Shown in pieces: positions 174 to 27,054 of a DNA stretch of 34,133 bases. Under the pieces are notes generated by a model, which had not been told where the DNA came from, did not search any database, and saw only the letters and a list, made by a program, of their open reading frames with translations. The position numbers and the translations under genes are program-made. Positions within the stretch are counted from its first letter, which is position 1. Each line of letters begins with the position of its first letter. Origin of the DNA: Giesbergeria sp. (GTDB taxonomy: Bacteria; Pseudomonadota; Gammaproteobacteria; Burkholderiales; Burkholderiaceae_C); the NCBI GenBank assembly GCA_023150295.1, contig JAKLLE010000039.1, positions 1-34,133 of the forward strand, given 5' to 3'.

Positions 174-857
174 CTACCGCGAGAGCGAACGGTAGATGCT
201 GAGAACCCGCTCAACATATTGTTGGGTCTCTGGGTATGGCGGGATACGCCTCCCGTGTTTGAGTACTGCGCCCTCTCCGGCGTTGTATGCAGCCAGGGCC
301 AACTCCTTGTTCCCGTCAAAAATGCGCAACAAGTCGGCGAGGTACTTGCTACCGATGTGTGCATTGAGTTTTGGCTCCATCACTGCTTGACGCACCTCTT
401 GGGTACTGCGTGCTGCTACTCCATAGCGCTGAGCCGTTGCTGGCATGACTTGCATGAGACCCAGAGCCCCTTTGGGCGACACAGCGTCCGCGTTGAAAGC
501 CGACTCTGCCGCGGCGACCGCAATCACCAACGCAGGATCCAATGCTTGTGCCCGTGCAGCTTCCTCCAGCACGGGCTTTGCAGATGCATACCCCGGCATG
601 GACAGCGGGGGCTTGACCATACCCTGGGGCCTATCATTCACTGTACGCCCTACACCTTCCAACCAGAGAACACCACGTGTCGACGGGGGCGCCACATTAC
701 CCATGTGCACCACCCCATTTCGGTCCACAAACTCCCACACCTCAGCACGAACCAGTGGAGAAACCACTGCGCACCAGACGAAAACGAAGACCCAAGGCAT
801 TACCGGCACACCACCGCAACGCGCCAGACACCGCTCCACCATTTCACCCAATTGCAT
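174..857 (-). CDS. periplasmic lytic transglycosylase (SLT domain)
   Basis: A 227-aa murein-cleaving enzyme of the Slt70-type (GH23) fold. A hydrophobic export signal lies around residues 19-38 and ends near VRA-EVW. Next comes a short DUF4124-like segment (WEFVDRNGVVHMGN), then the transglycosylase domain from about residue 95. The catalytic glutamate is in AAAESAFN, followed by the family motifs GALGLMQVMPATA and ALAAYNAGEGAV. The first ATG is used; a second ATG five codons in is also possible. It is the last gene of the polysaccharide operon, 6 bp after the acetyltransferase gene. Small enzymes of this kind often accompany envelope-spanning machines, where they open the cell wall; here it could serve the polysaccharide exporter or the nearby type II secretion system. 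The family call is firm, the partner is inferred. Confidence 0.9.
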   Translation of the reverse strand: MQLGEMVERCLARCGGVPVMPWVFVFVWCAVVSPLVRAEVWEFVDRNGVVHMGNVAPPSTRGVLWLEGVGRTVNDRPQGMVKPPLSMPGYASAKPVLEEAARAQALDPALVIAVAAAESAFNADAVSPKGALGLMQVMPATAQRYGVAARSTQEVRQAVMEPKLNAHIGSKYLADLLRIFDGNKELALAAYNAGEGAVLKHGRRIPPYPETQQYVERVLSIYRSLSR

Positions 858-863
858 GACCTT

Positions 864-1493
864 TCAAGCCCGCATCAGCTTGGCTTTGAACCAATGCCAA
901 AAACCTGGCCGCCTCTCATGGTTCGAGGCTGGCTCGGAAAACTGCCCCGAACGACGAACCCGAATCAGCCGTGCAGGCATACCCGCAGCCACCATTCCAT
1001 CCGGCACATCATGCCTAACCAAGGCACCAGCGGCGACCACCGCGCCCCGACCAATCCTCACGCCTTCCAGCACAATGGCGCCTGCACCAATCCACGCGCC
1101 ATCTTCAACGACAATCCGTGCCCGTGTGATGCGATTGCGTGCGATGATGGCATCTCCTTCGTCTATCGCATGTCCTGCAGACAACAGTTTGGCATGGGGA
1201 CCGATCAGCACATCTTCGCCAATGTCCAGTCCCCCTTCCCCCGAAAGATAGCAACCCACATTCACAATGGTGCGGTCACCAACGCGAATGCCCACCACAG
1301 GATCGGCAAGCACATCTCCCACCACAAGCCGTGTATTGGCATACAGGCTCACCTCTTGTGCAAGGCAGATGACCTCTGGACGCTGGTTGAATCGCATCAC
1401 GGTTACCGTGGGATCGACGCGGCACCCGCTTCCCATGCTATCGATGCCAGGGAAGGATGGCGTGCAATCTGGAACTCCTGATATCTCCGACAT
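864..1493 (-). CDS. hexapeptide-repeat acyltransferase, probably sugar O-acetyltransferase
   Basis: This 209-aa protein shows the left-handed beta-helix pattern from about residue 60 to 180, with repeated I/V-G-x-x-x units such as IRVGDRTIVNVG, LDIGEDVLIGPHA and VRIGRGAVVAAGA. The histidine in LLSAGHAID sits where CysE/WcaF-type acetyltransferases have the catalytic base. The ending AAGMPARLIR is also typical. Residues 1-50 and a basic C-terminal tail (GFWHWFKAKLMRA) lie outside the helix. It is 13 bp downstream of the methyltransferase and 6 bp upstream of the transglycosylase gene, so it is very likely cotranscribed. The probable role is acetyl transfer from acetyl-CoA to a sugar of the exported polysaccharide; the acceptor cannot be read from sequence. 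Confidence 0.85.
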   Translation of the reverse strand: MSEISGVPDCTPSFPGIDSMGSGCRVDPTVTVMRFNQRPEVICLAQEVSLYANTRLVVGDVLADPVVGIRVGDRTIVNVGCYLSGEGGLDIGEDVLIGPHAKLLSAGHAIDEGDAIIARNRITRARIVVEDGAWIGAGAIVLEGVRIGRGAVVAAGALVRHDVPDGMVAAGMPARLIRVRRSGQFSEPASNHERRPGFWHWFKAKLMRA

Positions 1494-1506
1494 GAATACG
1501 TAGACC

Positions 1507-2493
1507 TCACATACCCAGTATTGACTTCAAGCGTGCTTTCCAAGATCTCCGCATATGGTTCAAGTGCTGCTGCGCCAAGTTCAAATCCGACTCCAATGCC
1601 TGCTTTTCCGCCGATAGCTGTGTCACTCCATGTTCCAGCTCGCTGATCTTCTTTTCGAACTTGGCAATGATCTGCCTGGCTTCTCCAAACGCCTTCTGAT
1701 GCTCAAGCAAAGAAGTGTGCTCTGCATCATGCAGCAGTTGAAGCGATTGGAGTTGGGTTTGCATACGATCCAATTCTGAGCGCATGTTCACGATTTCCCA
1801 ATGCCGTGCATACACGGCGGGAGCTACAACGACCATCCACTGATAGACATCGAAGTCCGGACTCGCTGCTATCAGGGGTTGACGCAAGGCCCCAGGCAGC
1901 GCATCCCAAATCCATGCGAACTCACTGTGCGAAAGTGGCACACGGTTAGCATCCCATGCATGGGGCCTCCATCCGCAGTCCAGCATCGTCTTCTCAATGC
2001 TTCGTCGCGTAAAAAACCGCAAATGGGTTCGATCCAACAGACCTTTGTCTGTATAGTCAAAAAGCCCACTGCACAGTGATGCAATCACTCCGGCATATGC
2101 CACATTGGGAAGCGACACCACGAGTCGCCCAGTGGGCTCCACCACGTCCTTCAGCGTTTGCAGCACGCGATCCGGCTGCTGCAGGTGTTCAAGTACATCG
2201 CACGCCAGAATCGCATCAAATCTTCGTCCACCCAACTGCCGCACCCAGTCGGGATGATCCAAATTGGCGTCCATTACATGCACTCCCATGGACTGCAAGA
2301 CCTTGAGCGCATCTGGATCGTTCTCGACGACGGTCACTTGGCAACCACGCCCGAGTAGTACCTTGGTCATGACCCCAGCTCCTGGCCCCAACTCCAGTAC
2401 GGAACACGCCGGGGGAACATTGCGCAACAACCGTGCAGGCCACGAATCGCCGTCAATATCAAAGGCGTAATCGTATCGGTCAATGTTGGACAA
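1507..2493 (-). CDS. class I SAM methyltransferase with C-terminal coiled coil, candidate polysaccharide chain terminator
   Basis: A 328-aa protein. Residues about 15-200 form a Rossmann methyltransferase with motif I LELGPGAG (33-40), an acidic end of strand 2 (VVENDP) and the motif FDAILACDVLEHL. From about residue 235 to 312 the sequence is a heptad-patterned coiled coil rich in Glu, Gln and Leu, followed by a basic amphipathic end (RRSWKARLKSILGM) that could touch the membrane. Methyltransferase plus coiled coil beside a Wzm/Wzt exporter recalls WbdD of E. coli O8/O9a, where methylation caps the O-antigen and a coiled coil sets chain length. This protein has no kinase domain and is much shorter, so the match is of architecture only. 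It overlaps the upstream acyltransferase gene by 14 bp. Confidence 0.85.
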   Translation of the reverse strand: MSNIDRYDYAFDIDGDSWPARLLRNVPPACSVLELGPGAGVMTKVLLGRGCQVTVVENDPDALKVLQSMGVHVMDANLDHPDWVRQLGGRRFDAILACDVLEHLQQPDRVLQTLKDVVEPTGRLVVSLPNVAYAGVIASLCSGLFDYTDKGLLDRTHLRFFTRRSIEKTMLDCGWRPHAWDANRVPLSHSEFAWIWDALPGALRQPLIAASPDFDVYQWMVVVAPAVYARHWEIVNMRSELDRMQTQLQSLQLLHDAEHTSLLEHQKAFGEARQIIAKFEKKISELEHGVTQLSAEKQALESDLNLAQQHLNHMRRSWKARLKSILGM

Positions 2494-3394
2494 GGCGTTC
2501 CTCCTGGGGCATTGGTCGCCACATTTGATCCCAAAGGCCCCAGTGCCACCAGGCCCAGGGTCGTTTTTTTATGTCTGCCTCCAAATGGCAGATCACCGCA
2601 TCGATCGCTTCTCTCGGATTTTGTGGAAGCGCCTCAACACTCACACGCATTCGATCCGGTGCATCGGTGTAGGTCACGGCATGCAGCAACGCTGCACCCG
2701 TCGATTGCGCCAAGCGCTCAATTCCTGTGGGGAGGCTCAACTGCCCTCTCAAGAATGCATGGCTGCGCATACGTCCGAATTCCGGCCGCCAGGCGTCAGC
2801 AAGAATCACCCACGCCTGCCCTGCTCTTAGCCCCTCATGAACAGGCCGCAACCCTTCATCAGACGTGCGCCACTGACCGCCTGTGATACGTGTGTAGGTG
2901 CCAATTTTCTTGATGAGGAAGTCCCGCTGCACGTCACCCAATTCTGGATTGTTCAAGACAGGCATCGTCATATTGTGCAAAACCAGTCCGCGACGGGCCA
3001 GTGCTATGGGGGCAGTCAACAACCGGTCGAAGTGGTTGAGAACCAAAATGAAGCCTTGGTTCCGACGCTGCAGTGCCTCAACACACTCCCACCCCGTCAA
3101 GCTGATCTGAGGGCCCCCGCGGACACCGATTCGCTGGAGGGCACAGGCATCAAGCATTTCTTGCGCAAGCATGCGCATGTGCGCCTGCGCCCACTGTCGG
3201 CGCTGTTCCGGTGTGGATTGTGGGAAAACCTGCTGAAAGCGTTCCTGCAGGAACCGCTCTGTGGTACGACGCACCGGAACAGAATCCCGCCCCAACCAGT
3301 GCACAACTTTCCATGGAAAGGCTGTTGGCAATCGTCCCATCCTGGGAAATGCCCACTCCATTCGCCAATCACGGCTTATGCGCATTGTAGCCAT
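2480..3394 (-). CDS. LpxL/HtrB-like lysophospholipid acyltransferase family protein
   Basis: 304 aa, the normal length for the lipid A late acyltransferase family. The central block GFILVLNHFDRLLTAPIAL (from residue 114) matches the region that carries the active-site histidine (H121). However, the acidic residue normally five places after it (H-x4-D/E) is a leucine here; the nearest acid is D123. Later blocks VHEGLRAGQAWVILADAWRP and LPTGIERLAQSTGAALLHAV fit the family's lipid-binding and G-containing motifs. No strong N-terminal membrane anchor is visible. It lies between wzt (19-bp overlap) and the methyltransferase (14-bp overlap), so it belongs to the polysaccharide operon rather than a lipid A locus. 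It may acylate a glycolipid anchor or have diverged in activity. Confidence 0.75.
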   Translation of the reverse strand: MATMRISRDWRMEWAFPRMGRLPTAFPWKVVHWLGRDSVPVRRTTERFLQERFQQVFPQSTPEQRRQWAQAHMRMLAQEMLDACALQRIGVRGGPQISLTGWECVEALQRRNQGFILVLNHFDRLLTAPIALARRGLVLHNMTMPVLNNPELGDVQRDFLIKKIGTYTRITGGQWRTSDEGLRPVHEGLRAGQAWVILADAWRPEFGRMRSHAFLRGQLSLPTGIERLAQSTGAALLHAVTYTDAPDRMRVSVEALPQNPREAIDAVICHLEADIKKRPWAWWHWGLWDQMWRPMPQEERLVQH

Positions 3395-4596
3395 TCATGC
3401 TCCATCCACACCAAGCCGAATTCGCGATGCTTCTGGTTCAGCACTGTGAACGGCTGGATCAACTCAGCCATATCCAACACCTGCAGCCCCGTATCGTCCA
3501 ATGTATATACGTTCCAAAGATATTCACCAGACAACAACGGCAGGTGTGGAAACTTGAGTCGCAATCGATGCAGACCCTTTCCTTGCAGCGTTGAGTGAGA
3601 TTTTCGAAACTGCGTGCTGGTGCCAAATACGTTATCCTTGTCAGGCCGGACAATGGCAAACCCCACATGAAATGGTGCGTCACTGTAGGCTTCCACCTGT
3701 ATGTCCAGTATCAAATCCTGAAAAGAATCCACTTGTGCAGGATTGATACCGTCGGACGTTTCTGTGGACAAGCATACGATTTTCACCGGGGCGGAACTTG
3801 ATCCTGACAGGGGGCCATTTGTACTGCGCGCAGAAACACCAGGATCGGCAGCGCCCTCAGTTCGCAAATGCGCATACCTGCGTCGTTCGTGTGCCTCATA
3901 GGCTGTGACCACATCTTCGGTATTTCCCAATGCCTCAATGAGACCACCATGCACCCAAGCTGCGCGCTGGCACAAACTGCGCACCTGGTAGAGGTTGTGC
4001 GAGCAAAACAAGATCGTGGTGCCGCGCTCGCGCAGCCCCAAAATGCGGTTGAGGCTCTTTTTCTGAAAGTGCAAATCGCCCACAGAGAGTGCCTCGTCCA
4101 CGATGAGCACCTCTGGATCAATGGCGGTGGCAGCAGCAAAGGCCAGTCGCATGAACATGCCCGACGAATATGTCTTTACAGGCCTTGAGAGCGCCTCAGA
4201 CGACAGCTCGGAAAACTCGATGGTTTGCGCGACAAACGCCTCCAGTACCTCTCCCTGCACCCCATGCAAGGCTGCCATGAAACGGATGTTGTCCTGCCCA
4301 GACTCTTCGGGGTGGAAACCGGCACCCAGCTCCAACAGCGCAGCCACACGACCTTGCCGATATACCTGTCCTTTGGTGGGGCGGATGGTGCCGGCCGCGA
4401 TCTTGAGCAGCGTACTTTTCCCTGCGCCGTTCTCGCCAATCAGACCGAAGGTTTCGCCTGACTGCACCTCGAATTCAACCCCGGTCAGCGCCACATGCAA
4501 GCGGTGACGCTGCTTTCGAGAGAGCCATTCCCAAAGCCGATCCTGTGGCCGCGCATACACCGGGTAGGTTTTCTCGATACCTTCAAAGCGGATCAC
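3376..4596 (-). CDS. wzt: Wzt-type ABC transporter ATPase with C-terminal carbohydrate-binding domain
   Basis: The ATPase of a polysaccharide ABC exporter, 406 aa from a GTG start at 4596 that overlaps the permease stop (GTGA). The frame stays open further upstream, but that part lies inside the permease gene and is not family-like. Residues 1-250 form the nucleotide-binding domain: Walker A GENGAGKST (54-62), signature YSSGM (143-147), Walker B VLIVDEAL and the switch histidine in FCSHN. After a Ser/Pro/Gly-rich linker, residues about 270-406 form a beta-rich domain (IVCLSTE..., HVGFAIVRPD, LSGEYLWNVYTLDD) like the Wzt C-terminal domain that binds the capped end of the finished O-antigen. 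That domain points to export of a pre-assembled, end-modified polymer. Confidence 0.92.
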   Translation of the reverse strand: MIRFEGIEKTYPVYARPQDRLWEWLSRKQRHRLHVALTGVEFEVQSGETFGLIGENGAGKSTLLKIAAGTIRPTKGQVYRQGRVAALLELGAGFHPEESGQDNIRFMAALHGVQGEVLEAFVAQTIEFSELSSEALSRPVKTYSSGMFMRLAFAAATAIDPEVLIVDEALSVGDLHFQKKSLNRILGLRERGTTILFCSHNLYQVRSLCQRAAWVHGGLIEALGNTEDVVTAYEAHERRRYAHLRTEGAADPGVSARSTNGPLSGSSSAPVKIVCLSTETSDGINPAQVDSFQDLILDIQVEAYSDAPFHVGFAIVRPDKDNVFGTSTQFRKSHSTLQGKGLHRLRLKFPHLPLLSGEYLWNVYTLDDTGLQVLDMAELIQPFTVLNQKHREFGLVWMEHEWLQCA

Positions 4597-5447
4597 AGCG
4601 CTTCCCCCAGTGCCGACTTCATCGAGCGGAAGAACCACCAGCCGCCGCAACCCAGCAACAGCACCCACAGCGCCAATGCAGGCACCAGCCCGGACATCAT
4701 GGGCATGCCCAGCACGACCCCCTGCACCACCAACACGAGGCAAGCCACTGGATTGAGCAGATACCAAACGTGATACGACTCGGGAACTTGCGACAGCGGA
4801 TACACCACCGGCGTCAGATAAAACCACAGTTGCGTTGCAAACGCCACAAACGACCCTACGTCACGCCACAGAAAATGGGCCATGCTCAAGAACAGTGTCA
4901 GGCCCAAGGTCAACACCAGTTGTGTCAGCACCAACACCGGCACCAGCAGCCACGCAGCAGACGGTCCGAGGCCCTGTGCCATAGCAAGGGCCAGCAACAA
5001 AACATAGGCCACTGCCATGACCGGCAAACTGCCCCCCACGGACACGGCCGGCAAAATTTCTGACGGCATGGGCTGCTTGCGCAAGAAATCTTCATAGGCC
5101 GCTAGACTACCCACCCCACGCCCGATGGAGTCGGTGAACGGTAACCACACGGCCAACCCTGCCAGCAGATGCAGCAGATAGCCTTGGTTGGTATCCAGGC
5201 CCGGCACTCGAACTGCCAGCAAACGACCGAAGAGCACATAAAAAATGGCAAGCGTCGCTACCGGCTGCACAAATGCCCATGCCAAGCCCAGCACCGACCC
5301 TGCATAGCGCGTCTTGAACTCGCGCGCCATCCAATAGCGCCACAAAACCCATGCATGCTGCCCAGCCCCCTGCTGCGCCACCTGAGCTCGCAACCTCATC
5401 GGCGCGCCTGCAGGCATTTGATTCGGCCCGGACTCTGGCGAGCTCAT
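4593..5447 (-). CDS. wzm: ABC-2 type polysaccharide export permease (Wzm-like)
   Basis: A 284-aa inner-membrane protein with about six hydrophobic segments. The N-terminal segment WRYWMAREFKTRYAGSVLG is the cytoplasmic amphipathic helix typical of O-antigen and teichoic acid exporters, followed by the first membrane span (LAWAFVQPVATLAIFYVLFG). The C-terminal half carries the usual LTPVVYPLSQVPE and the short loop with LNPVACLVLVVQGVVLG. It starts inside the stop of the glycosyltransferase gene (ATGA, 5447-5444) and its stop overlaps the wzt start, so the three proteins are translationally coupled. With Wzt it should move lipid-linked polysaccharide across the inner membrane. Confidence 0.92.
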   Translation of the reverse strand: MSSPESGPNQMPAGAPMRLRAQVAQQGAGQHAWVLWRYWMAREFKTRYAGSVLGLAWAFVQPVATLAIFYVLFGRLLAVRVPGLDTNQGYLLHLLAGLAVWLPFTDSIGRGVGSLAAYEDFLRKQPMPSEILPAVSVGGSLPVMAVAYVLLLALAMAQGLGPSAAWLLVPVLVLTQLVLTLGLTLFLSMAHFLWRDVGSFVAFATQLWFYLTPVVYPLSQVPESYHVWYLLNPVACLVLVVQGVVLGMPMMSGLVPALALWVLLLGCGGWWFFRSMKSALGEAL

Positions 5448-6688
5448 TGCGCCATTCCCGTTGTGGCCGCTGGGAGTTGCTTGCGCGCTGCCAGCAAACC
5501 CCGCTCGAATGCCTCAGCCGAGGCCTGCCAGTGCTGCTGGCGCGCGAATTCCTGCCCTCGGCTGGCCAAGGCCTTACGCGCGGCATCGTCCTCCAGCAAA
5601 TGGCACAGTGCCCCCGACAAGGCCTCTACCGTCGGATCCGTCAACAACGCTACTTCGTCATTGAGCAGCCACTCCACGCCTTCTCCACGATTGGATACCA
5701 CTGCACATCCCGCAGCCATCACCTCCAAGGGCATCAAGGACAGATTGGTCAACGACATCACCAACGCCGCATCGCATTGGCTGAATACGTCGGCCAACTC
5801 TTCTGGCGTGATCACACCTGTTGCAAGATGCGGAAACGGAATGTGATATTCGCCCACATCCCATCCAGCCAGAATGAACTGGGTTCCAGGAAGCTTGCGC
5901 GAAACCGCCTCCAGCACCAGCAGTCCAAATTCAAAAGCGCGCCGCGGAGTGGGAGGACGTGCATAGAAAAACACGCGCTTGATCTGCGGCTCACGCCGGG
6001 GCCGCTGGCGATACAACTCATGGTCTACGCCAAAACTGATGGCGTGCGTCTGCATACCATATTCGGTGTTCAGCTTGCGCGCCAACCAACCACCGGCCGT
6101 GATACCAAAAAACCCGAAGTGATACGTATTGTCTGCCAATACCGACTCAGTACCCGTGGGGTAGAAGCTCGGCTCAAAATCCTGCACAAAGTAGAGCTTC
6201 TTTGCCAAACCCACCACGGCCCGCACCGGATATGCCGTCTGCCAGCCCGTGGCAATGACAAACTCGCTGCTGGGCAACCTATCGAAACCCACATACACCT
6301 TGGCCTGCAAGGGAAAGAAATGCTCGCATATATCGTAGTGGGCCGCCTCGGCACTGGCATGCACGGTTGGGCTCACAATCACGATGCCCGACTCCCAGCC
6401 CATGCGCTCCAGATGCCATATCGTGCGGAAAATAGTCTGGTGACCACCAGAGCCGATGTTGAAATCTGGAATGAACCACAACAAGGTGTTGGGGCGTGCA
6501 GGCTGCGACGCTAACAGCACCTTTTTGACGCACACAAAATCAAATTGTGCAAAGACGTTGCGGTTTTTTAGAACACCGCCGGGCCCAAACCTCAGCCGCT
6601 GCAGAACCATGGATGCTGTGCTTAACACTCCGTGGTGTCGCATCAACTCCGATATTCGGCGCATGCGCCGCACGAACGATCCGAACAT
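5444..6688 (-). CDS. GT4-like glycosyltransferase (WsaF-type, possible rhamnosyltransferase)
   Basis: A 414-aa cytoplasmic glycosyltransferase with a GT-B fold. Its opening block LLWFIPDFNIGSGGHQTIFRTI and the segment LYFVQDFEPSFYPTG are characteristic of the WsaF group of rhamnan-synthesising enzymes. The C-terminal half has the nucleotide-sugar binding region (VFFYARPPTPRRAFEFGL, ILAGWDVG) and the motif NLSLMPLEVMAAGCAVVS, in which a glutamate binds the donor. The N-terminal 50 residues are basic. The rhamnose genes elsewhere in the window make dTDP-rhamnose a sensible donor. It follows the GT2 gene after 64 bp and couples to the permease by a 4-bp overlap. Confidence 0.82.
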   Translation of the reverse strand: MFGSFVRRMRRISELMRHHGVLSTASMVLQRLRFGPGGVLKNRNVFAQFDFVCVKKVLLASQPARPNTLLWFIPDFNIGSGGHQTIFRTIWHLERMGWESGIVIVSPTVHASAEAAHYDICEHFFPLQAKVYVGFDRLPSSEFVIATGWQTAYPVRAVVGLAKKLYFVQDFEPSFYPTGTESVLADNTYHFGFFGITAGGWLARKLNTEYGMQTHAISFGVDHELYRQRPRREPQIKRVFFYARPPTPRRAFEFGLLVLEAVSRKLPGTQFILAGWDVGEYHIPFPHLATGVITPEELADVFSQCDAALVMSLTNLSLMPLEVMAAGCAVVSNRGEGVEWLLNDEVALLTDPTVEALSGALCHLLEDDAARKALASRGQEFARQQHWQASAEAFERGLLAARKQLPAATTGMAQ

Positions 6689-6752: not shown

Positions 6753-7730
6753 CTAGGCGGTACGACCACGCTGCAACGCCTGGTCGCGCGAAATGGCTCC
6801 CAGCAGCCAGCCTGGCAACCGCCGATGCCGCGTGCCCAGAAACTGGCCCAAGGTTCGTGCCAGTTCGATAGCAGCCATGTAAACGGATTGCTCAACCCAC
6901 GAAATGCCGCCCACCCCAGCCTGACGTAGCCACCGCGCATCTCGCCTCGCCAAAAGCACAGCGCTGGCCAGTGCGCGCCAGAGACTACGTTGAATTTCAT
7001 AACCAAAATCGCGCTGAAAGGAGCTGGCTTCATCAAAATTGCGCTGCAGCGTCTCCCACACGCCAAAATCGTGTGAGTGGAAAACCGCCGCATCTGGAAC
7101 GTAGGCTTTGGAATATCCAGCCTTGATGGCTGCCAACATCCACGTCTGGTCTTCAGCGAACTTTACGTCTGGAAACGGGAGACGTTCCCACACCGTACGG
7201 CGCAGGCATGAATTATTGTTGGAAAAAAAATGTAGAAACTGCCTATAGCCGACTTCGCGGTCAAAACGTTCGCGGTCTCCCAAGCACACCCTAGAAAGGG
7301 TATTGCCAAAGCCTGCAAAATGCTCTTGCAGTTCCCGCTGCGTCACCAGCCGCGCACCCGGGTGCGCACGGTGTGGGCCAAAAGCTCCTGCCACATCAGG
7401 GGCACTGTCACAACCCTCCACAAGGCGAAATAGCCAATGCATGTCGACCGGGCGGGCATCTTGGGTAATGAACACCAAAAATTCACCACGCGACAGACTC
7501 GCCAAGAAATTGCGGGTACGGCCATGGCCAAATTCCGATGGTGGAATTGTTTCTACTCTAACCCCTCTTTGGCGGGCCAATTCGATAGAATTGTCCGTCG
7601 ACCCTGAATCTACAACAATGACCTCGAAAGGCCATGGCGCCTTTTGGTTGAGCACTGCATCAAGAACATCCAACCAAATTTTTCCAGCATTTTTTACTGG
7701 GATCAGCACTGAGGCGCGAGGAGTTTTCAT
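6753..7730 (-). CDS. family 2 glycosyltransferase (rhamnosyltransferase-like)
   Basis: 325 aa. The N-terminal GT-A domain opens with ASVLIPVKNAG, has the donor-binding VVDSGSTDNS (the first aspartate pair region) and FITQDARP as the DxD-like metal site, and later FAEDQTWMLAAI, whose ED probably supplies the catalytic base. The C-terminal 90 residues contain hydrophobic stretches that may sit on the membrane. It is the first gene of the left polysaccharide operon, 109 bp after the prolyl isomerase gene. I see no good Shine-Dalgarno before its ATG, and the upstream bases are AT-rich. A rhamnosyltransferase role is likely given the neighbours, but specificity is not readable. Confidence 0.85.
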   Translation of the reverse strand: MKTPRASVLIPVKNAGKIWLDVLDAVLNQKAPWPFEVIVVDSGSTDNSIELARQRGVRVETIPPSEFGHGRTRNFLASLSRGEFLVFITQDARPVDMHWLFRLVEGCDSAPDVAGAFGPHRAHPGARLVTQRELQEHFAGFGNTLSRVCLGDRERFDREVGYRQFLHFFSNNNSCLRRTVWERLPFPDVKFAEDQTWMLAAIKAGYSKAYVPDAAVFHSHDFGVWETLQRNFDEASSFQRDFGYEIQRSLWRALASAVLLARRDARWLRQAGVGGISWVEQSVYMAAIELARTLGQFLGTRHRRLPGWLLGAISRDQALQRGRTA

Positions 7731-18417: not shown

Positions 18418-18888
18418 TCAGTTATATACGTCGGCGTTTTCGCCATCTCCGCCCGGCTTGCCGTCGGAACCGAGCGAGAAAACGTCAGGCCCACCATTGC
18501 GCCCAGGGTTTTTGTACTGGTAGGCCGCGCCCCAGGGGTCGGCGGGCAGGCCTTTCTTCATGTAAGGACCATTCCAGCCCTGGGCGGTGGAGGGGCGCTC
18601 CACCAGGGATCGCAGACCTTCGGCATCGTTGGGGTAGCGGCCCACATCAAGCTTGAACAGGTCGAGACTTTGCTCCAGTTCTCCGATCTGCACGCGCGCG
18701 GTCCTGGACTTGGCGCCGCCGAGCTGATCCAGCACCTTGGGGCCCACCAGGCCGGCAAGCAGGGTCAGGATGACGAGCACCACCAGCAGTTCGATCAGGG
18801 TGAAACCAGAGGCTCGGCGCGGCGCGGCGGCCAAGGGGTGAGAGGGAAAATGTTGCACTGTTTGCATGGATGGGTGTTGCCAGAACAT
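18418..18888 (-). CDS. gspG: type II secretion major pseudopilin GspG
   Basis: 156 aa including an unusually long leader; an internal ATG at codon 8 (18867) may be the real start. Cleavage is expected at G28-FTLIELLVVLVILTLLAGLV. The mature part has the standard series KSRTARVQIGELEQSLDLFKLD, GRYPNDAEGLRSL, LPADPWGAAYQY and, at the end, DGKPGGDGENADVYN, which is the calcium-binding loop of major pseudopilins. It polymerises into the pseudopilus that drives substrate through GspD. It lies 6 bp after gspF. Confidence 0.95.
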   Translation of the reverse strand: MFWQHPSMQTVQHFPSHPLAAAPRRASGFTLIELLVVLVILTLLAGLVGPKVLDQLGGAKSRTARVQIGELEQSLDLFKLDVGRYPNDAEGLRSLVERPSTAQGWNGPYMKKGLPADPWGAAYQYKNPGRNGGPDVFSLGSDGKPGGDGENADVYN

Positions 18889-20103: not shown

Positions 20104-21817
20104 GTTGGCGAGCGACCCGCAGTACTTCTTCTGCCGTGGTCAGGCCCTGAAAGACCTTGGTGGCGCCATCGTGCAACAAGTTCCCTGCGGCGTAGGCGCC
20201 TTCATCGCCACGCAGGGTGGAGCCGTTTTCGAGCACGGCGCGCTTGACCTGGTCGTTGAGCTCCAGCAGCTCATGGATGGCCAGCCGCCCCCGGTAGCCC
20301 GTGGAGCGACAGTGCGCACAACCCACCGGGCGGTAGAGCGTAGCTTCCGCCGGCGCCTGCACCCCCAATGAGGATGCGGCCAAATGGGCCTGCTCTGGGG
20401 TGAGCGGCGCCTTGCAGTCCGTGCACAACTTGCGCACCAAACGCTGCGCCAGCACACCCACCACAGAGGCAGTGATGAGGTAGGGCTCCACCCCCATGTT
20501 GATGAGACGCACAATGGCCCCCAGGGCGCTGTTGGTGTGCAGCGTGGAGAGCACCAAGTGGCCCGTGAGCGCGGCCTGCACGGCGATTTCTGCCGTTTCG
20601 CCATCACGCATTTCGCCGATCATGATGACGTCGGGGTCTTGCCGCAGGAAGGAGCGCAGCACGGCCGCAAAGCTCAGGCCGATTTGCGGCTGCACCTGCA
20701 CCTGGTTGAGCCACTGCAGGCGGTATTCGACCGGGTCTTCCACCGTGAGGATCTTGAGGTTTTCGCCCTCCAGCTCCTGCAGCGATGCGTACAGGGTGGT
20801 GGACTTACCCGAGCCGGTGGGCCCCGTGACCAGCAAGATGCCGTGGGGCAAGGCCAGCATGTGGCGCAAGGCCTGCAGCGTGGCCGGGGTGAAATGCAGA
20901 CTTTCGAGCGAAAGCAGGTCGAAGTTCTTTTCGAGCAGACGCATGACCACCGATTCGCCGAACGCGGTGGGCACGGTGGAGACGCGCACGTCCATTTCCT
21001 TGCCGTGCACGCGCAGCTTGGTGCGCCCGTCCTGGGGCATGCGGCGCTCGGCGATGTCGAGCTGCGAGAGGATCTTGATGCGCGAGACAACGGCGGGGGC
21101 GTCTTTGTTGTCGATCTCATCGACCGGGAAGATCTCGCCGTCCACGCGGATGCGCACCACCGATTTCTGCTCGTAGGTTTCGATGTGGATATCCGACGCC
21201 TTGGAGGTCACCGCATGCGCCAGGATCTGGTTGACGCGCTGGATGATGGGCGCCTCGGAGGCCATGTCGCGCAGGTGCTCAATGAACTCGGACGCCTCGG
21301 CACCGCCAGGGACAGCCTCTTCGTCCTCCTGCGCGGCCTGCACATACCACTCGTTCAGCCGACCGGCAATCTCGGTTTCAAGCCCAAACACCAGCGTGGG
21401 CACGGCACCGAACACCAGGCGCAACGCAGTGCGCAGGGTATCGCTGCGCGGGTCGGCACTGGCAAACACAGGTGGCTCTGCGCCTTCCAACGCTGGCCCC
21501 AGCGGCAGCAGGTTGTGGGCCAGCAGAAAGCCGGTATTGAGGGCGGGCGTTTCCGGGCGGTCCGCCGGAAATGCGTCGGCGCGCAGCAGGGGCAAGTCTG
21601 CCTGCCGGGCCAATGCGGCAAAGACATCGGCCTCCGCCACCAACCCCAGGCTGACCAACAGCCGCCCCAGCTTTCCGCCCATGGAGCGCTGCACTTCCAG
21701 CGCCCGCTCCAAATCGTGGCGCGAGAGCTTCTGGGCAGACAGCAGCATGTCCCCCAGCCTGGGGGCAGCAGCAGCCTGCTCGGTCGGTTCGATACGTTCT
21801 GCGGTCGGCAAACTCAT
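20096..21817 (-). CDS. gspE: type II secretion ATPase GspE
   Basis: 573 aa. An N-terminal domain (LGDMLLSAQKLSRHDLERAL, about 21-80) for docking to GspL is followed by the ATPase: Walker A GPTGSGKST (332-340), Asp box VEDPVEYRL, Walker B DVIMIGEMRD and the His box STLHTN. A four-cysteine zinc site (CTDC ... CAHC) with GYRGR marks secretion/pilus-assembly ATPases. It powers pseudopilus assembly from the cytoplasm. It begins only 3 bp after a glycosyltransferase stop, so the secretion block seems fused to the rhamnose/glycosyltransferase transcript. Confidence 0.95.
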   Translation of the reverse strand: MSLPTAERIEPTEQAAAAPRLGDMLLSAQKLSRHDLERALEVQRSMGGKLGRLLVSLGLVAEADVFAALARQADLPLLRADAFPADRPETPALNTGFLLAHNLLPLGPALEGAEPPVFASADPRSDTLRTALRLVFGAVPTLVFGLETEIAGRLNEWYVQAAQEDEEAVPGGAEASEFIEHLRDMASEAPIIQRVNQILAHAVTSKASDIHIETYEQKSVVRIRVDGEIFPVDEIDNKDAPAVVSRIKILSQLDIAERRMPQDGRTKLRVHGKEMDVRVSTVPTAFGESVVMRLLEKNFDLLSLESLHFTPATLQALRHMLALPHGILLVTGPTGSGKSTTLYASLQELEGENLKILTVEDPVEYRLQWLNQVQVQPQIGLSFAAVLRSFLRQDPDVIMIGEMRDGETAEIAVQAALTGHLVLSTLHTNSALGAIVRLINMGVEPYLITASVVGVLAQRLVRKLCTDCKAPLTPEQAHLAASSLGVQAPAEATLYRPVGCAHCRSTGYRGRLAIHELLELNDQVKRAVLENGSTLRGDEGAYAAGNLLHDGATKVFQGLTTAEEVLRVARQHD

Positions 21818-21820: not shown

Positions 21821-22837
21821 TCAGCCTTGTGGGTTCTGGGGCGCCTGCGCGGCATCTGGGTGCGGCGTGTACTTACCCGTAGCGGGCGCAGGCCACAACA
21901 GGCAGCGCAGCAGCCGGTCCATTTCGGAGCCGGGATAGTATGCCCTGTAAGTGCGAATTCTCTGCCACAGCGGTTGGTTCCGCCAGGCCAGGTAGTCTGC
22001 AACAAGGCTTGCATCTCTTTGCAGGCTGCGCAGGCGCTGTTCCAGTGCCTGGGCCTGGCGGTAGCTGTTGCGCCCGGCCTGGCCGGCACGGCGCAGCACC
22101 CGTGGGGCGTCACGCAACAGGCGCAGCACGCGGTGGTGCAGGCTGCGGCTGTGTGCGCCGATCTGGTTGACCGCATGTTGGCGGTACAGCAGGGTGGGGG
22201 TATCGACGAACGTGCGCCGACCGCTGCCGCTGAGCACGGCACACCACCAGTCGTGCACCACCACCTCTGCGGGAATGGGCAGCGCCATGGCCAGCAGGTT
22301 GCGGTTCACCATGGTGGCGCAGCCGGTGACCTGGTTCATGCTCAGCAGATCCCTTGGCGTGCAGCGTGCGGGATCCATGTGCTGGTAGCGCACAAAGGAA
22401 TCGGCCATGGTTGCCAGCGCCTCATCCACCACACGCAGGTCGGTATGCACCAGGCAGGGCGTATTCGACTCAGCGCCTTGTTCGGTGCGCTGCATGGCGG
22501 CCAGGGTCTGCTCGATCTTGTCCGGCAGCCAGACATCGTCCTGGTCGCAGAACATCGCCCAGGGCGCCTGTGCATCGTCCAAACTGGCCTGCATGAGGTA
22601 TTCGAAATTGCCCAGCCCCCCCCGCCCAGCCGGGCGCGGTGGCAACAGCAGCAGGCGCCCGCCGGACCGCGGGCGGTAGCGCTCCAGCACAGCCCGGGTT
22701 CCATCGGTGGAGCCATCGTCGCTGACCAGCAGGCGGAAATGCGGGTATGTCTGGGCCAGGAGCGAATCGAGCAGCGCCGCCAGATGGCGCTCGCCGTTCC
22801 AGGTGGCCAGCAACACGTCAACCAACGCGGCGTGCAT
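21821..22837 (-). CDS. family 2 glycosyltransferase (rhamnosyltransferase-like)
   Basis: 338 aa from the ATG at 22837 (MHAALVDVLLATWNG), the natural start; the frame is open upstream but only inside the neighbouring gene. The GT-A domain has VDVLLATWNGERHL, the nucleotide-binding LVSDDGSTDGT, the metal site MFCDQDDVWLPDKI and the acceptor-side motif VVHDWWCAVLSG. The DQDDVWLPDKI form is common in O-antigen and polysaccharide rhamnosyl- and galactosyltransferases. The C-terminal 100 residues are basic. It overlaps the previous glycosyltransferase by 20 bp and is 3 bp from gspE. A G8 run at 22616-22623 is a possible slippage site. Confidence 0.88.
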   Translation of the reverse strand: MHAALVDVLLATWNGERHLAALLDSLLAQTYPHFRLLVSDDGSTDGTRAVLERYRPRSGGRLLLLPPRPAGRGGLGNFEYLMQASLDDAQAPWAMFCDQDDVWLPDKIEQTLAAMQRTEQGAESNTPCLVHTDLRVVDEALATMADSFVRYQHMDPARCTPRDLLSMNQVTGCATMVNRNLLAMALPIPAEVVVHDWWCAVLSGSGRRTFVDTPTLLYRQHAVNQIGAHSRSLHHRVLRLLRDAPRVLRRAGQAGRNSYRQAQALEQRLRSLQRDASLVADYLAWRNQPLWQRIRTYRAYYPGSEMDRLLRCLLWPAPATGKYTPHPDAAQAPQNPQG

Positions 22838-23603
22838 GGTCTTGTTGGAACTGCCGGTACGCCGGGGAATGCCACAACCGCCACAGGCTGCGCAGATGCC
22901 AGCCCAGGTGGCGCCATTGGCGGCGGCTGGCACGCTGGCCCGCGTGGACAACGCAGGCGCCTTGCGCCTCGGCCAGGCGATACCCGGCCAGTTGCAGGCG
23001 CAAGCAGATGTCCACGTCTTCGCAGTACATGTGGTAGGCCTCGTCGAAGCCCTGGATGCGCTGGTAGGCCGCGCTGTGGAACAACAGCAATGCAGCGTTG
23101 GCCCAGTCGGGCGCCGCAACCCGTGCCCTGCGCCTGGCGCCGCCGCCCAGGTAGCGCTGCAGCAAAGCACCAGGGGTGGGCAGGCGGCGGGCATGGTCCT
23201 GGGGCTGGCCGTGGGCATCGACCTGCTGCGGATACACGCAGCCCACGCCGGGCTGTTGCGCGGCCTGCAGCATGGCGGCCCAGGGATCCTGGGACCAGGT
23301 GATGTCGGGGTTCATGACCACAAAGAAGGGCGAAGGCGCGCTTTGCTGCTGCTCATGTCCAAAGGCCTGGTTGTGGTTGGCTCCAAAGCCCAGTGGCTGG
23401 GGGTTGTGCAGCACGCGCACATCCAGGCGACCGCGCCAGGCAGCATCCGGGGCGGCCAGCGCCTGCGTGAGGGCGGGCTCGGGGGTGTTGAGCGTGACCC
23501 AGACGCGGCGAATCAACGACTGCGGTGATTGCACCAGCAGCGCCAGCAGGGACAGCACCTGTGCACCGTGGCCATGGCTGACGATGGAAAGCGCGAGGGT
23601 CAC
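22818..23603 (-). CDS. family 2 glycosyltransferase (WbbL-like rhamnosyltransferase)
   Basis: 261 aa. It opens with LALSIVSHGHGAQV, continues with LHNPQPLGFGANHNQAF, the donor/metal site FVVMNPDITWS, and ends the catalytic domain with GFDEAYHMYCEDVDICLRL, where the ED pair is typical of the WbbL/rhamnosyltransferase branch. The last 40 residues are rich in Arg and Trp and may associate with the membrane. It lies 21 bp after rfbC, so dTDP-rhamnose is the expected donor. It could start or extend the polysaccharide backbone on the lipid carrier; the step is not readable from sequence. Confidence 0.87.
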   Translation of the reverse strand: MTLALSIVSHGHGAQVLSLLALLVQSPQSLIRRVWVTLNTPEPALTQALAAPDAAWRGRLDVRVLHNPQPLGFGANHNQAFGHEQQQSAPSPFFVVMNPDITWSQDPWAAMLQAAQQPGVGCVYPQQVDAHGQPQDHARRLPTPGALLQRYLGGGARRRARVAAPDWANAALLLFHSAAYQRIQGFDEAYHMYCEDVDICLRLQLAGYRLAEAQGACVVHAGQRASRRQWRHLGWHLRSLWRLWHSPAYRQFQQDHARRVG

Positions 23604-23624
23604 CGGCCTGCCGCTGGGAAATGG

Positions 23625-24188
23625 TTAGGCAAACAGGGCATCAGCGCCCAGGCTGGCGAGGAGCGGCGCGGCGCTGTCCTTGGCCGAGAGCAGCGGTTGC
23701 TGGCCTTGCGCCAGCGCAGGCCAGGAAATGCCAATGCTCGGGTCGTTCCAGGCGATGCTGCGCTCGTGCTGCGGTGCGTAGTAGTCGGTGGTCTTGTAGA
23801 GGAAGTCTGCCGACTCGCTGAGTACCACGAAACCATGGGCGAAGCCGGGCGGCACCCAGAGCTGGTGCTGGTTGTCCTCAGTCAGTTCCGCGCCCACCCA
23901 TTGCCCGAAGGTGGGCGAGCTGCGGCGGATGTCCACGGCCACATCGAACACGGCCCCGCGCGCCACGCGCACCAGCTTGCCCTGGGCTTGCTGGATCTGG
24001 TAGTGCAGGCCACGCAGCACGCCCCGGCTGGAGCGGCTGTGGTTGTCCTGCACGAACGCATGGTTGGTGCCTGTGGCTTCGTTGAATGCTTTCTGATTGA
24101 AGCTCTCAAAGAAGAAACCGCGCGCGTCGCCGAACACCTTGGGTTCGATCAGCACCACGTCGGGGATGGCCAGCCGGGTCGCTTTCAT
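23625..24188 (-). CDS. rfbC: dTDP-4-dehydrorhamnose 3,5-epimerase RfbC
   Basis: 187 aa, full length for the family. Conserved blocks are IEPKVFGDARGFFFESFNQKAF, the active-site region VQDNHSRSSRGVLRGLHYQ (catalytic His and neighbouring Arg), GAVFDVAVDIRRSSPTFGQWVG and VPPGFAHGFVVLSE. It epimerises dTDP-4-keto-6-deoxyglucose at C3 and C5, the third step of dTDP-L-rhamnose synthesis. Its ATG overlaps the rfbA stop by one base (TGATG). Confidence 0.96.
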   Translation of the reverse strand: MKATRLAIPDVVLIEPKVFGDARGFFFESFNQKAFNEATGTNHAFVQDNHSRSSRGVLRGLHYQIQQAQGKLVRVARGAVFDVAVDIRRSSPTFGQWVGAELTEDNQHQLWVPPGFAHGFVVLSESADFLYKTTDYYAPQHERSIAWNDPSIGISWPALAQGQQPLLSAKDSAAPLLASLGADALFA

Positions 24189-25078
24189 CAGTACACCGTC
24201 TCTTTCAGCAGGCGCTGCAGGTATTGGCCGTAGCCGTTCTTGGCCAGGGGCTGGGCCAGGCGCTGGAGCTGTTCGTCGCCGATCCAGCGGCTGCGCCAGG
24301 CGACTTCCTCGGGGCAGGCGATCTTCAGGCCCTGGCGGTGTTCCAGCGTGGCGATGAACTGGCTGGCTTCGAGCAGGCTTTCGTGCGTGCCGGTGTCCAG
24401 CCAGGCGTAGCCCCGCCCCATGATCTCAACGTTGAGCTGGCCCTGCTCCAGGTACAGGCGGTTGAGGTCGGTGATTTCCAGCTCGCCGCGTGGACTGGGC
24501 TTCAGGCTCTTGGCGAGCTCCACCACCTGGCTGTCGTAAAAGTACAGGCCGGTGACGGCGTAGTTGCTTTTGGGCACCGGGGGCTTTTCTTCGAGCGAGA
24601 GCACCTTGCCCTGCGCGTCGAACTCCGCCACGCCGTAGCGCTCGGGGTCGTGCACGTGGTAGGCAAACACGCTGGCGCCGGTGCTGCGGCCATGGGCGCT
24701 GCCCAGCAGTTCATGGAAGTGGTGGCCGTAAAAGATGTTGTCGCCCAGCACCAGGGCGCTGGGTGCGTCACCCACAAACGACTCGCCGATCAGGAACGCC
24801 TGCGCCAGCCCGTCGGGGCTGGGCTGCACGGCGTATTGCAGGCTGATGCCCCACTGACTGCCGTCGCCCAGCAACTGCGCAAAGCGCGGCGTATCCTGCG
24901 GCGTGCTGATGACCAGGATCTCGCGGATGCCCGCCAGCATGAGGGTGCTGAGCGGGTAGTAGATCATGGGCTTGTCGTACACCGGCAGCAACTGCTTGCT
25001 GATGGCCAGCGTGGCGGGGTGCAGGCGCGTGCCGGAGCCGCCAGCGAGGATGATGCCTTTGCGTGCTGTCATGGTCAT
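24188..25078 (-). CDS. rfbA: glucose-1-phosphate thymidylyltransferase RfbA
   Basis: 296 aa. Signature blocks are [17 protein letters not shown] (nucleotide binding), [35 protein letters not shown] (metal-binding aspartate) and [16 protein letters not shown]. It joins glucose-1-phosphate and dTTP to give dTDP-glucose, the first step to dTDP-rhamnose. A second ATG two codons in is an alternative start. It sits 9 bp after rfbD and overlaps rfbC by one base. Confidence 0.97.
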
Positions 25079-25087
25079 GGGTGGGGG

Positions 25088-25984
25088 TCAGAGGATTTCG
25101 GCGAGCATGCGCGCCACGCCGGTTTGCCAGTGCGGCAACTGCAGGCCGAAGGTGGTTTGCAGCCGGGCCGTGTCCAGGCGCGAATTGTGCGGGCGCGTGG
25201 CGGGCGTGGGGAAGGCACTGGTGGGCACAGGCGCAATTTCTTTTGCTATTATTTTTATAGCTGCCTGCGCTTTGCTGGCGTGCTCAAACACGAATTTCGC
25301 ATAAGAATGCCAGGTGGTTTCCCCCGCCGCCACGCAGTGGTACAGCCCGCCGTCCTGCGGCCGGGCCTGCAGGTGGCGGATGGCGTGTGCCGTGACGTCG
25401 GCCAGCAGGTCAGCCCCCGTGGGCGCGCCCCACTGGTCGTCGATGACGGTGAGGCGTTCGCGCTCCTGGCCCAGGCGCAGCATGGTCTTGGCAAAGTTGC
25501 CGCCGCGTGCGGCATAGACCCAGCTGGTGCGCAGAATCAAATGCTGGCAACCCGATTGCTGGATGCGTTGTTCGCCTTCCAGCTTGGTGGCGCCGTACAC
25601 CGACAGCGGTGCTGGCGTGTCGGTTTCGACCCAAGGCCGGGTACCGCTACCGTCGAACACATAGTCGGTGCTGTAGTGCACCAGCCAGGCCCCCAGGCGC
25701 GCGGCCTCCTCGGCCACGAGGCCGGGGGTGGTGGCGTTGAGCAGGCGCGCGAATTCTGGTTCGCTCTCGGCCTTGTCCACGGCGGTGTGGGCGGCGGCGT
25801 TGACGATGACCTGAGGGCGCAACTGGCGCACGGTGTCGCGCACGCCCTCGGGGTTGGCAAAGTCACCGCAGTGCGCTTGGCTGTCGAAATCCAGCGCCGT
25901 GACCTGGCCCAGCACGCTGAGGCTGCGCTGCAGCTCCCAACCGACCTGGCCGCTTTTGCCGAGCAGGAGGATGTTCATGCTCAT
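25088..25984 (-). CDS. rfbD: dTDP-4-dehydrorhamnose reductase RfbD
   Basis: 298 aa from the ATG at 25984, whose ATGA overlaps the rfbB stop; [13 protein letters not shown] two codons later is an alternative. The NADPH-binding loop [22 protein letters not shown], the catalytic [10 protein letters not shown] and the YGATKLEGE (YxxxK) motif are all present, as is [19 protein letters not shown]. It performs the last reduction to dTDP-L-rhamnose. Near 25235-25260 the sequence is locally AT-rich (codons for [10 protein letters not shown]), but the frame is intact. Confidence 0.96.
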
Positions 25985-27054
25985 GCGACGCTGCCCTCGC
26001 CCTCGTACTGCTTGGCCACCCAGTCGCGGTAGGCGCCGCTTTGCACCTGCGCCACCCAGTCGGGGTGGTCCAGGTACCACTGCACGGTCTTGCGGATGCC
26101 GGTGTCGAAGGTCTCGGCAGGTTTCCAGCCCAGCTCGCGCTCGATCTTGCGCGCATCGATGGCATAGCGCCGGTCGTGGCCAGGGCGGTCCTTCACGTAG
26201 GTGATCTGGCTGCGGTAGCTCTGGCCGTCGGCACGCGGACGCAACTCGTCCAGCAGGGCGCAGACCGTGTTCACGATGTCGATGTTGGGCTTTTCGTTCC
26301 AGCCACCGACGTTGTAGGTTTCGCCCACAGCCCCGGCCTCGAGCACCCGTCGGATGGCGCTGCAGTGGTCCTTGACGTAGAGCCAGTCCCGGATCTGCAT
26401 GCCGTCGCCGTACACCGGCAGGGGTTTGCCCGCCAGCGCGTTGACGATCATCAGCGGGATGAGTTTTTCCGGGAAGTGGTACGGCCCGTAGTTGTTGCTG
26501 CAGTTGGTGGTGAGCACCGGCATGCCATAGGTGTGGTGCCAGGCGCGCACCAGATGGTCGCTGGCGGCCTTGCTGGCGCTGTAGGGGCTGTTGGGCTCGC
26601 AGTTGTGCGTTTCGGTGAACGCGGGTGCATCGGGTGCCAGGGTGCCGTACACCTCGTCGGTGCTCACGTGCAGGAAGCGGAATGCTTCTTTTTTTGTAGC
26701 ATCCAGCGCTTGCCAGTATTGCCTTGCGGCCTCCAAAAGCCTGAAAGTACCGACCACGTTGGTCTGGATGAAGTCCTCGGGGCCGTGGATGGAGCGATCC
26801 ACATGCGATTCGGCCGCAAAGTTGACGATGGCGCGCGGTTGGTACTGCGCCAGCAGGCCATCGACCAGGGTGCGGTCACCGATGTCGCCCTGCACGAAGA
26901 CATGGCGCGCGTCGCCCTGCAGGCTGGCCAGGTTGTGCAGGTTGCCGGCGTAGGTGAGCTTGTCGAGGTTGACGACGCCCTCCGGGTTGCCGGCAAGCCA
27001 GTCAAGTACGAAGTTGGCGCCGATGAAACCGGCGCCTCCGGTGACGAGGATCAT
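25981..27054 (-). CDS. rfbB: dTDP-glucose 4,6-dehydratase RfbB
   Basis: 357 aa from the ATG at 27054 ([16 protein letters not shown]); a TTG four codons upstream is less likely. The Rossmann loop [26 protein letters not shown], the catalytic STDEVYG and [15 protein letters not shown] (YxxxK) and the later [17 protein letters not shown] are all intact. It converts dTDP-glucose to the 4-keto-6-deoxy sugar. It is the first gene of the rhamnose operon. A -10-like GATAAT lies on this strand at 27097-27092, but I see no convincing -35, so the promoter is uncertain. Confidence 0.96.

Follow-up and report, generated by a model that had tools for sequence, protein, structure and literature searches.

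Introduction

The 34,133-nucleotide contig analysed here (the window; contig C141 of the 3.69-Mb draft genome of a Giesbergeria sp.) encodes a type II secretion system (T2SS) between genes for rhamnose synthesis and genes of an O-antigen exporter, and this arrangement raises the question of whether the locus builds a surface coat. A first-pass annotation of the sequence had proposed that it makes, exports and anchors such a coat, and had singled out the 291-aa secreted protein encoded after the secretin gene (p291). It appears likely that the locus is of the Aeromonas Sps kind and serves surface-layer (S-layer) biogenesis, and that the p291 family comprises new S-layer proteins occupying the slot of the S-layer protein NpdA in lineages that are free of NpdA. 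The protein-family libraries searched contained no match to the p291 family.

Gene order and the Aeromonas counterpart

Open reading frames (ORFs) with Pfam and NCBIfam matches give the following order on the minus strand: rfbB, D, A, C; two ORFs of glycosyltransferase family 2 (GT2); gspE-F-G-H-I-J-K-L-M; a 158-aa ORF; gspD; a small lipoprotein gene (p162); p291; a 367-aa lipoprotein gene (lipo367); a parvulin-type prolyl isomerase gene (ppi); a further GT2 gene (gt2a); a WsaF-like gene; wzm; wzt; and genes for an LpxL-like acyltransferase, a methyltransferase (MT), a hexapeptide acyltransferase (acT) and a lytic transglycosylase (SLT). The block order given in the first-pass annotation, from rfbBDAC and glycosyltransferases through gspE-D, lipoprotein, secreted protein, lipoprotein and prolyl isomerase (PPIase) to Wzm/Wzt, is real, on that strand and at about the coordinates proposed; of the proposed span, 174-27054, the gene list stands and the right end does not, as the rfbB ORF reaches 27066. 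The LpxL-like acyltransferase, methyltransferase, hexapeptide-type acyltransferase and lytic transglycosylase are additions to the earlier list. All four rfb genes are above their Pfam cut-offs, as are the matches of gspK, gspL and gspM; GspD scores 403 bits (TIGR02517 cut-off 351), gspE, F and G are likewise clear, and the Wzt_C domain of wzt scores 46.2 bits (cut-off 30.4). Another, canonical GspD (625 bits) is encoded on contig C128 of the same genome.

In A. hydrophila AH-1, the O11-antigen and S-layer locus runs in the order RmlB, D, A, C; SpsE-M, Orf2 and SpsD; VapA; Wzm; and Wzt, and deletion of vapA abolishes the S-layer protein while deletion of rmlB or wzt abolishes the O-antigen (PMC4413209). 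In A. salmonicida the S-layer block lies between wzm and wzt (PMC4483657). The genes common to the window and AH-1 (rml, S-layer T2SS, coat gene and Wzm/Wzt) stand in the same order, so the Aeromonas analogy drawn in the first-pass annotation is apt: rmlBDAC lie upstream of the T2SS, the T2SS genes follow the order E-F-G-H-I-J-K-L-M-orf-D with the extra small ORF before the secretin gene, the secreted-protein gene comes soon after, and Wzm/Wzt lie downstream of it. The two loci differ in that the coat protein of AH-1 has 469 aa, and in that the window adds two lipoproteins and a prolyl isomerase beside p291, has other glycosyltransferases, an acyltransferase and a methyltransferase, and shows no counterpart of the truncated wzm of AH-1; this comparison, VapA included, was of gene order and description rather than of sequence. 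Slr4, the S-layer protein of Pseudoalteromonas tunicata, was likewise compared by description; its gene also adjoins a T2SS cluster, but the organism is marine and the passages on it report no link to O-antigen genes (PMC7821379).

Linkage of p291 to the secretion block

A contig scan with p291 recovered 15 relatives, nine titled Acidovorax and the rest Simplicispira, Tepidimonas, a Halothiobacillaceae metagenome-assembled genome (MAG) and three other MAGs. The order gsp-p162-p291-lipo367-ppi is kept wherever the relative's stretch is long enough, gt2a-wsaF-wzm-wzt-lpxL-MT come next in most, and all 13 of the 13 upstream stretches retrieved have rfbB, D, A and C before gspE. The arrangement thus recurs in most relatives examined, the exceptions being L018, with the order gspD-wzm-wzt-lpxL-p162-p291-lipo367-ppi, L019, without a wsaF or wzm match, and L016, with p162 and p291 only.

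Among 250 genomes of the family (the Giesbergeria genome included), the p291 profile matched 13, 12 of them strongly, a weak match with a stop in G113 (E 8.8e-4) having been dropped. GspL of the window type (E below 1e-50) was also found in 13 genomes, 12 of which are those with strong p291 matches; in the thirteenth, G142, the contig ends just after gspD. The distance between p291 and gspL, start to start, is 4,965-5,415 bases in all 12, and p291 homologues are therefore not usually elsewhere, an outcome that the first-pass annotation had named as contrary to its proposal; the exceptions (G599/L016, G319 and G555) are weighed below. In a sample of 26 genomes of the genus, 11 of which fall short of 90% completeness or exceed 5% contamination, p291 occurs in eight, and window-type gspF (at least 66% identity; next best 37%) in the same eight. 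In both samples, family and genus, the link between p291 and the window-type T2SS is firm, though not absolute. Several draft contigs (L009, L010, G142, G196 and G599) stop immediately after gspD or at or next to the gene for the coat protein, as might be expected of a region that is hard to assemble.

Linkage to O-antigen export genes

In 10 of the 12 genomes a Wzt_C domain is encoded no more than 15 kb from p291, and this rises to all 12 when window wzt is used in tblastn; some of the misses are due to contig ends. For the best NpdA-like gene the corresponding count is 17 of 25 strong genomes, three weak ones (G009, G178 and G210) having been dropped, and for the control, canonical gspD, it is none of the best-scoring 150 matches, the nearest domain being 33.6 kb away. 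The main text of the Paracidovorax citrulli S-layer study (PMC10765051) mentions none of the terms LPS, lipopolysaccharide (LPS in full), O-antigen and rhamnose.

The export genes resemble those of ATP-binding cassette (ABC) O-polysaccharide systems in which a Wzt with a carbohydrate-binding domain is accompanied by a coiled-coil terminator (PMC11231755), with Wzm, a Wzt carrying Wzt_C and a methyltransferase gene two genes downstream. They differ in that the terminator role of the window methyltransferase is a presumed one and in that the Pfam scans of the locus named no kinase. A second Wzt_C match in the same genome (G000:C78:70404-70820) suggests that a second ABC-exported polysaccharide may exist.

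Comparison with NpdA

NpdA is the protein that forms both S-layer and nanopods in Delftia (PMC3110197) and the S-layer in P. citrulli; its gene is found downstream of 12 gsp genes, in an arrangement that is largely conserved across Beta- and Gammaproteobacteria (PMC10765051). The family sample contains eight divergent T2SS loci. A small lipoprotein gene follows gspD in seven of them, the p291 slot is occupied in seven by a protein of 516-634 aa whose signal peptide is NpdA-like (profile A2), and a PPIase related to window ppi is encoded in six, a seventh being cut by a contig end. The eighth locus, that of G120, has an NpdA-like gene close by, on the opposite strand; here (L077) wzt, too, is on the strand opposite the gsp cluster, and an 821-aa ORF with a signal-like start follows the lipoprotein gene. 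The A2 proteins were equated with NpdA because of their slot, their size and spread and their 25-aa signal peptide rather than through a named NpdA sequence; the A2 protein of G194 (a 6.7-Mb genome) has a mature mass of 61.0 kDa, and for Delftia NpdA a mass of about 61 kDa is reported (PMC3110197). In G018, four NpdA-like genes stand in a row (G018:C1:3193784-3200346) and a fifth copy lies near the gsp block at 1636105.

The two types of locus share the position of the coat gene after the gsp cluster, a nearby Wzm/Wzt, and related accessory proteins, as profiles of their lipoproteins match at 98.3% and those of their prolyl isomerases at 97.5%. The coat proteins themselves are not alike. The comparison of p291 with NpdA proposed in the first-pass annotation gave no support for homology (hhalign probability 0.6% between the p291 and A2 profiles), and p291, at 28.3 kDa mature, is half the size of the 52-61 kDa NpdA proteins, whose signal peptide in P. 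citrulli has 25 residues (PMC10765051). A loosely shared pattern near the N-termini of p291 and A2 was noted by eye, and a remote kinship of the two families is left open by the sequences.

No A2 match was found in the Giesbergeria genome; A2 matches 28 of the 250 family genomes, none of which has p291. Nor did A2 match any of eight named p291 genomes (a set to which L007 does not belong), Acidovorax radicis N35 and A. delafieldii DSM 64 included, with the family sample as positive control. A. radicis N35, which is DSM 23535 (PMC8416521), has a p291 homologue (L015), whereas A. radicis and A. delafieldii are listed as npdA carriers in PMC10765051, where strains DSM 23535 and 2AN, respectively, appear in the culture table. 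A. radicis N35 is thus listed in print with an NpdA S-layer and gave no NpdA-like match; if both results hold, p291 is the likeliest S-layer protein of A. radicis.

Properties of the p291 protein

The p291 sequence begins with a 21-residue signal peptide, its cleavage site being read by eye, and has no Pfam or NCBIfam match. Its profile (alignment A1, from which L007 was excluded for an internal stop in the p291 frame) found no PDB sequence at E 1, and a search with the single sequence gave a lone unconvincing match (E 0.15). The excluded gene, the p291 homologue of Simplicispira lacusdiani (L007:10001-10966), has an interrupted reading frame with 135 aa to the first stop. A model built from 15 sequences is fairly confident (predicted local distance difference test score, pLDDT, 82.6; predicted template modelling (TM) score, pTM, 0.82) and all beta except for the signal peptide and short helical turns. 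A known S-layer fold or other solved fold was considered and rejected, as the PDB entries listed by Foldseek had query TM scores of 0.13-0.23 and none reached E 0.001.

The first-pass description of p291 as highly expressed-looking is a fair label in view of its strong codon bias (effective number of codons 37.6, versus 53.9-57.0 for gspD, p162, lipo367 and ppi) but no proof, as rfbA, B and C have lower values (29.5-34.5) and gspE, F, G and J similar ones (37.8-40.1). Promoter-like sites in the region number four, with 3.9 expected from shuffled sequence, so the site before p291 is part of no above-chance count; terminator-like sites number six, with 4.6 expected.

Mosaic identity pattern of the locus

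Identity at fourfold-degenerate sites between the window and its near relative L061 (G141) is 62-85% in gspF-J, 49% in gspK, 27-50% from gspL to ppi and 57-86% from gt2a to wzt; at the far end it is 20-22% in lpxL and MT, 82% in acT and 46% in slt. Change points in nucleotide identity against L061 were placed at 16618 (87 to 64%), 7412 (54 to 91%), 3976 inside wzt (98 to 65%) and 1445 (58 to 93%), and against L006 at 16606 (92 to 63%) and 7639 (50 to 79%), with likelihood gains of 92-203, the largest gain of 200 shuffles being 9.5. The left break common to both comparisons probably reflects a single event. Similar breaks appear in two independent pairs. In L010/L121 identity goes from 95 to 63% within the Wzt linker (gain 291), near residue 218, the window break being near residue 208. 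In L012/L065 it goes from 87 to 69% (gain 120) in the 5' part of the gt2a gene, and in this pair the S-layer side is the conserved one.

This pattern suggests that an S-layer module, from gspK to the PPIase gene, has been swapped between related bacteria, and that a polysaccharide module comprising the Wzt C-domain, acyltransferase and methyltransferase has been swapped separately. The GC content at third codon positions of window ppi and lipo367 (41 and 47%, versus 62-68% in L061 and L006) suggests the window lineage as the recipient of a foreign module. The S-layer module would contain GspL, GspM, the 158-aa ORF, GspD and most of GspK, with GspE-J outside, a boundary consistent with OutC and OutD as candidate gatekeepers of T2SS specificity (Lindeberg 1996, as cited in PMC3169554). 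Likewise, a joint swap of the Wzt sugar-binding domain with the acyltransferase and methyltransferase would be consistent with the recognition of the terminated chain end by Wzt (PMC11231755). In a limited literature search, neither module swapping nor the p291 coat-protein family was met in print, and no paper joining S-layer, type II secretion and Comamonadaceae was found.

Several observations weigh against a mosaic. Of 300 locus pairs compared (L062 and L063, from the same genomes as L008 and L014, and L070 being left out of the pair counts; G581 is L006 and G593 is L010), seven had a gene with fourfold-site identity of at least 70% (p291 aside, at least 30 such sites), and the pairs for change-point analysis were picked after these identities had been viewed. 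L011/L015 has no clear module drop except in lipo367 and ppi, L068/L069 falls gradually, and L061/L006 drops clearly only from p162 on. For p291 itself, identity at fourfold sites is near 50% in most of the close pairs, which its codon bias may explain. It is also conceivable, though very unlikely in our judgement, that the low identities of gspK-ppi and of Wzt-C, lpxL and MT arose through rapid evolution of the proteins and not through recombination: across all locus pairs the least conserved genes include ppi, p162 and lipo367 (median amino acid identity 46, 52 and 52%), and against L006 the fourfold identity stays at 38-50% to the right of the module (gt2a-wzt), though protein identity there rises to 86-88%. 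The fall and renewed rise of fourfold identity against L061, the size of the breaks (gains of 92-291 compared with at most 9.5 in shuffled controls) and the recurrence of a break at about the same place in wzt in L010/L121 argue for recombination instead.

Interpretation and alternative explanations

A mechanism can be proposed in which RfbBDAC would supply dTDP-rhamnose, the glycosyltransferases would assemble an O-polysaccharide that contains rhamnose, its finishing or capping would fall to the methyltransferase, perhaps together with the acyltransferases, and Wzm/Wzt would export it to end up in LPS. The p291 protein would cross the inner membrane by Sec, fold with the aid of the prolyl isomerase and be released by the GspE-D secretin system, whose pilotin or assembly factor is likely to be p162. 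Once outside, p291 would form a lattice on the O-polysaccharide, in whose assembly or anchoring lipo367 may serve. The proposal that the locus makes, exports and anchors a surface coat is thereby upheld as far as linkage goes (AH-1 order, proximity to gspL and to Wzt_C), without support for homology to NpdA; the surface location, lattice and anchoring of p291 are what we infer.

A number of results weigh against the S-layer interpretation. The MAG G599 has window-type gspD (62% identity) on contig C26 and its p162-p291 pair on another contig (L016:6287-7843) beside leuS; since the contig with its gspH-D block (C26, L151) ends 270 bases after gspD, it may hold a second p291 copy. Among 321 genomes of the class (the Giesbergeria genome included), p291 relatives outside the family occur in two, G319 and G555, which belong to another family and have roughly seven p291-like genes apiece (8 and 7 match rows; L110-L120 and L137-L144), some in tandem; a p162-like gene lies directly upstream of p291-like ones in two of eight stretches, no gsp match was found at E 1e-3 in those eight, and the best secretin matches to window GspD in the whole genomes are partial and 32-34% identical. 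Hence p291 relatives can exist without a window-type T2SS, and those of G319 and G555 may form a multi-copy surface protein family. Further, the non-overlap of 12 p291 and 28 A2 genomes among 250 is weak alone, about 1.3 shared genomes being expected by chance; the A2 search did not reproduce the published npdA listing of A. radicis and A. delafieldii; and among the PDB entries listed by Foldseek no solved structure like the p291 model was found. The linkage exceptions (G599, G319 and G555) led us to lower slightly our confidence both in the S-layer interpretation and in the proposal on coat exchange made below.

If p291 is not a lattice protein, it could be an abundant secreted surface or matrix protein, such as an adhesin, sheath or biofilm protein. 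In agreement with this, p291 matched known S-layer proteins neither in sequence nor in fold, and the multi-copy relatives in G319 and G555 resemble a varied surface-protein family more than a single lattice subunit. Against it, p291 occupies the slot of NpdA among accessory genes related to those of NpdA loci, the two families occur together in none of the sampled genomes, and A. radicis N35 is listed in print with an S-layer (PMC10765051) yet gave no NpdA-like match; we regard this explanation as unlikely. Rather less credit is due to the view that the T2SS and O-antigen genes are neighbours by insertion history alone, with no joint function and with any coat anchored otherwise. Insertion can produce such proximity, the Aeromonas S-layer genes having been described as inserted into the wb cluster (PMC4413209, PMC4483657); however, p291 and NpdA-like genes alike show the linkage in several genera, whereas none of the 150 best-scoring canonical gspD matches does, and in Delftia the S-layer protein needs LPS for reassembly (as cited in PMC3110197), with the LPS of strain Cs1-4 being 49% rhamnose (PMC4572682).

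On the S-layer interpretation, a more specific proposal can be put forward tentatively, the balance being somewhat against it: that the p291 family forms the S-layer credited to NpdA in A. radicis, and perhaps in A. delafieldii, and that loci change coat type via two matched modules, one comprising the coat protein with GspK-L-M-(C)-D, p162, lipo367 and the PPIase, and the other the Wzt sugar-binding domain with the acyltransferase and the chain-ending methyltransferase. If so, export specificity would lie in GspK-L-M-(C)-D rather than in GspE-J, and the anchor polymer would be switched too.

Features of the locus

The coordinates of all features are collected in Table 1. The 158-aa ORF, without a Pfam match at E 5, is possibly GspC/PilP-like. 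The p162 lipoprotein, a possible pilotin or assembly factor, gave a weak model and weak Foldseek matches, NTF2-like proteins among them. Lipo367 is perhaps a beta-propeller, the methyltransferase a possible O-chain terminator, and the WsaF-like enzyme presumably a rhamnosyl transferase. Upstream of rfbB, positions 27146-30844 of the window hold a two-domain short-chain dehydrogenase gene and a divergent TetR regulator gene; in the upstream stretches of relatives TetR matches occur in 13 of 13 and the dehydrogenase in 8 of 13.

Table 1. Features of the Giesbergeria locus, in window coordinates (HMM, hidden Markov model)
Feature	Position	Strand	Basis and remarks
rfbB/rmlB, dTDP-glucose 4,6-dehydratase	25981..27066	-	Pfam; upstream of gspE in 13/13 relatives
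rfbD/rmlD	25088..25984	-	Pfam; start inferred from beginning of HMM match
rfbA/rmlA	24188..25078	-	Pfam
rfbC/rmlC	23625..24188	-	Pfam
Two overlapping GT2 glycosyltransferase ORFs (22818-23603; 21821-23218, start of the second perhaps near 22820)	21821..23603	-	Pfam
gspE, ATPase	20096..21817	-	Pfam
gspF	18895..20103	-	Pfam
gspG, gspH, gspI, gspJ, pseudopilins	16848..18888	-	Pfam; H and I by N_methyl only; T2SSJ match of J below cut-off
gspK	15919..16851	-	Pfam; left identity break 16606-16618 inside gene (change point)
gspL (PilN-like) and gspM (subtype b)	14379..15931	-	Pfam
158-aa ORF at position of Aeromonas Orf2	13906..14382	-	Conserved in relatives
gspD, secretin	11522..13909	-	TIGR02517 above cut-off
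p162, lipoprotein	10997..11449	-	Profile match to lipoprotein of NpdA-type loci, 98.3%; model pLDDT 69
Promoter-like site before p291 gene	10912..10940	-	Consensus scan
p291, proposed S-layer subunit	9956..10831	-	Mature 270 aa, 28.3 kDa, pI 4.85 if cleaved after residue 21
Intrinsic-terminator-like hairpin after p291 gene	9878..9902	-	10-pair hairpin with T-tail
lipo367, lipoprotein	8737..9840	-	FG-GAP_3 and lactonase matches, both below cut-off; conserved family A6
ppi, parvulin-type prolyl isomerase	7840..8727	-	Rotamase_2; profile match to PPIase of NpdA-type loci, 97.5%
Right identity break of putative S-layer module, 5' part of GT2 gene	7412..7639	.	7412 vs L061, 7639 vs L006
gt2a, GT2 glycosyltransferase	6753..7730	-	Pfam
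WsaF-like glycosyltransferase	5444..6688	-	Pfam
wzm	4593..5447	-	ABC2_membrane
wzt with C-terminal Wzt_C domain, start approximate	3376..4602	-	Pfam; identity break 3976 between the two domains
LpxL-like acyltransferase	2480..3394	-	Pfam
Methyltransferase, long C-terminal part resembling coiled coil	1507..2493	-	Pfam and sequence by eye; identity break 1445 vs L061
Hexapeptide acyltransferase	864..1493	-	Pfam
Lytic transglycosylase (SLT)	174..857	-	Pfam

Significance

The kind of system described here is already known from Aeromonas and from NpdA. S-layer proteins are abundant but hard to find by homology, and the recurring pattern of rfbBDAC, T2SS, small lipoprotein, coat protein, PPIase and Wzm/Wzt offers a route to new S-layer proteins without sequence similarity; the family to which it leads here matches no sequence in Pfam, NCBIfam or the PDB. 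If the coat is indeed swapped along with GspK-L-M-C-D, such loci would constitute a natural experiment on which parts of the T2SS read the cargo.

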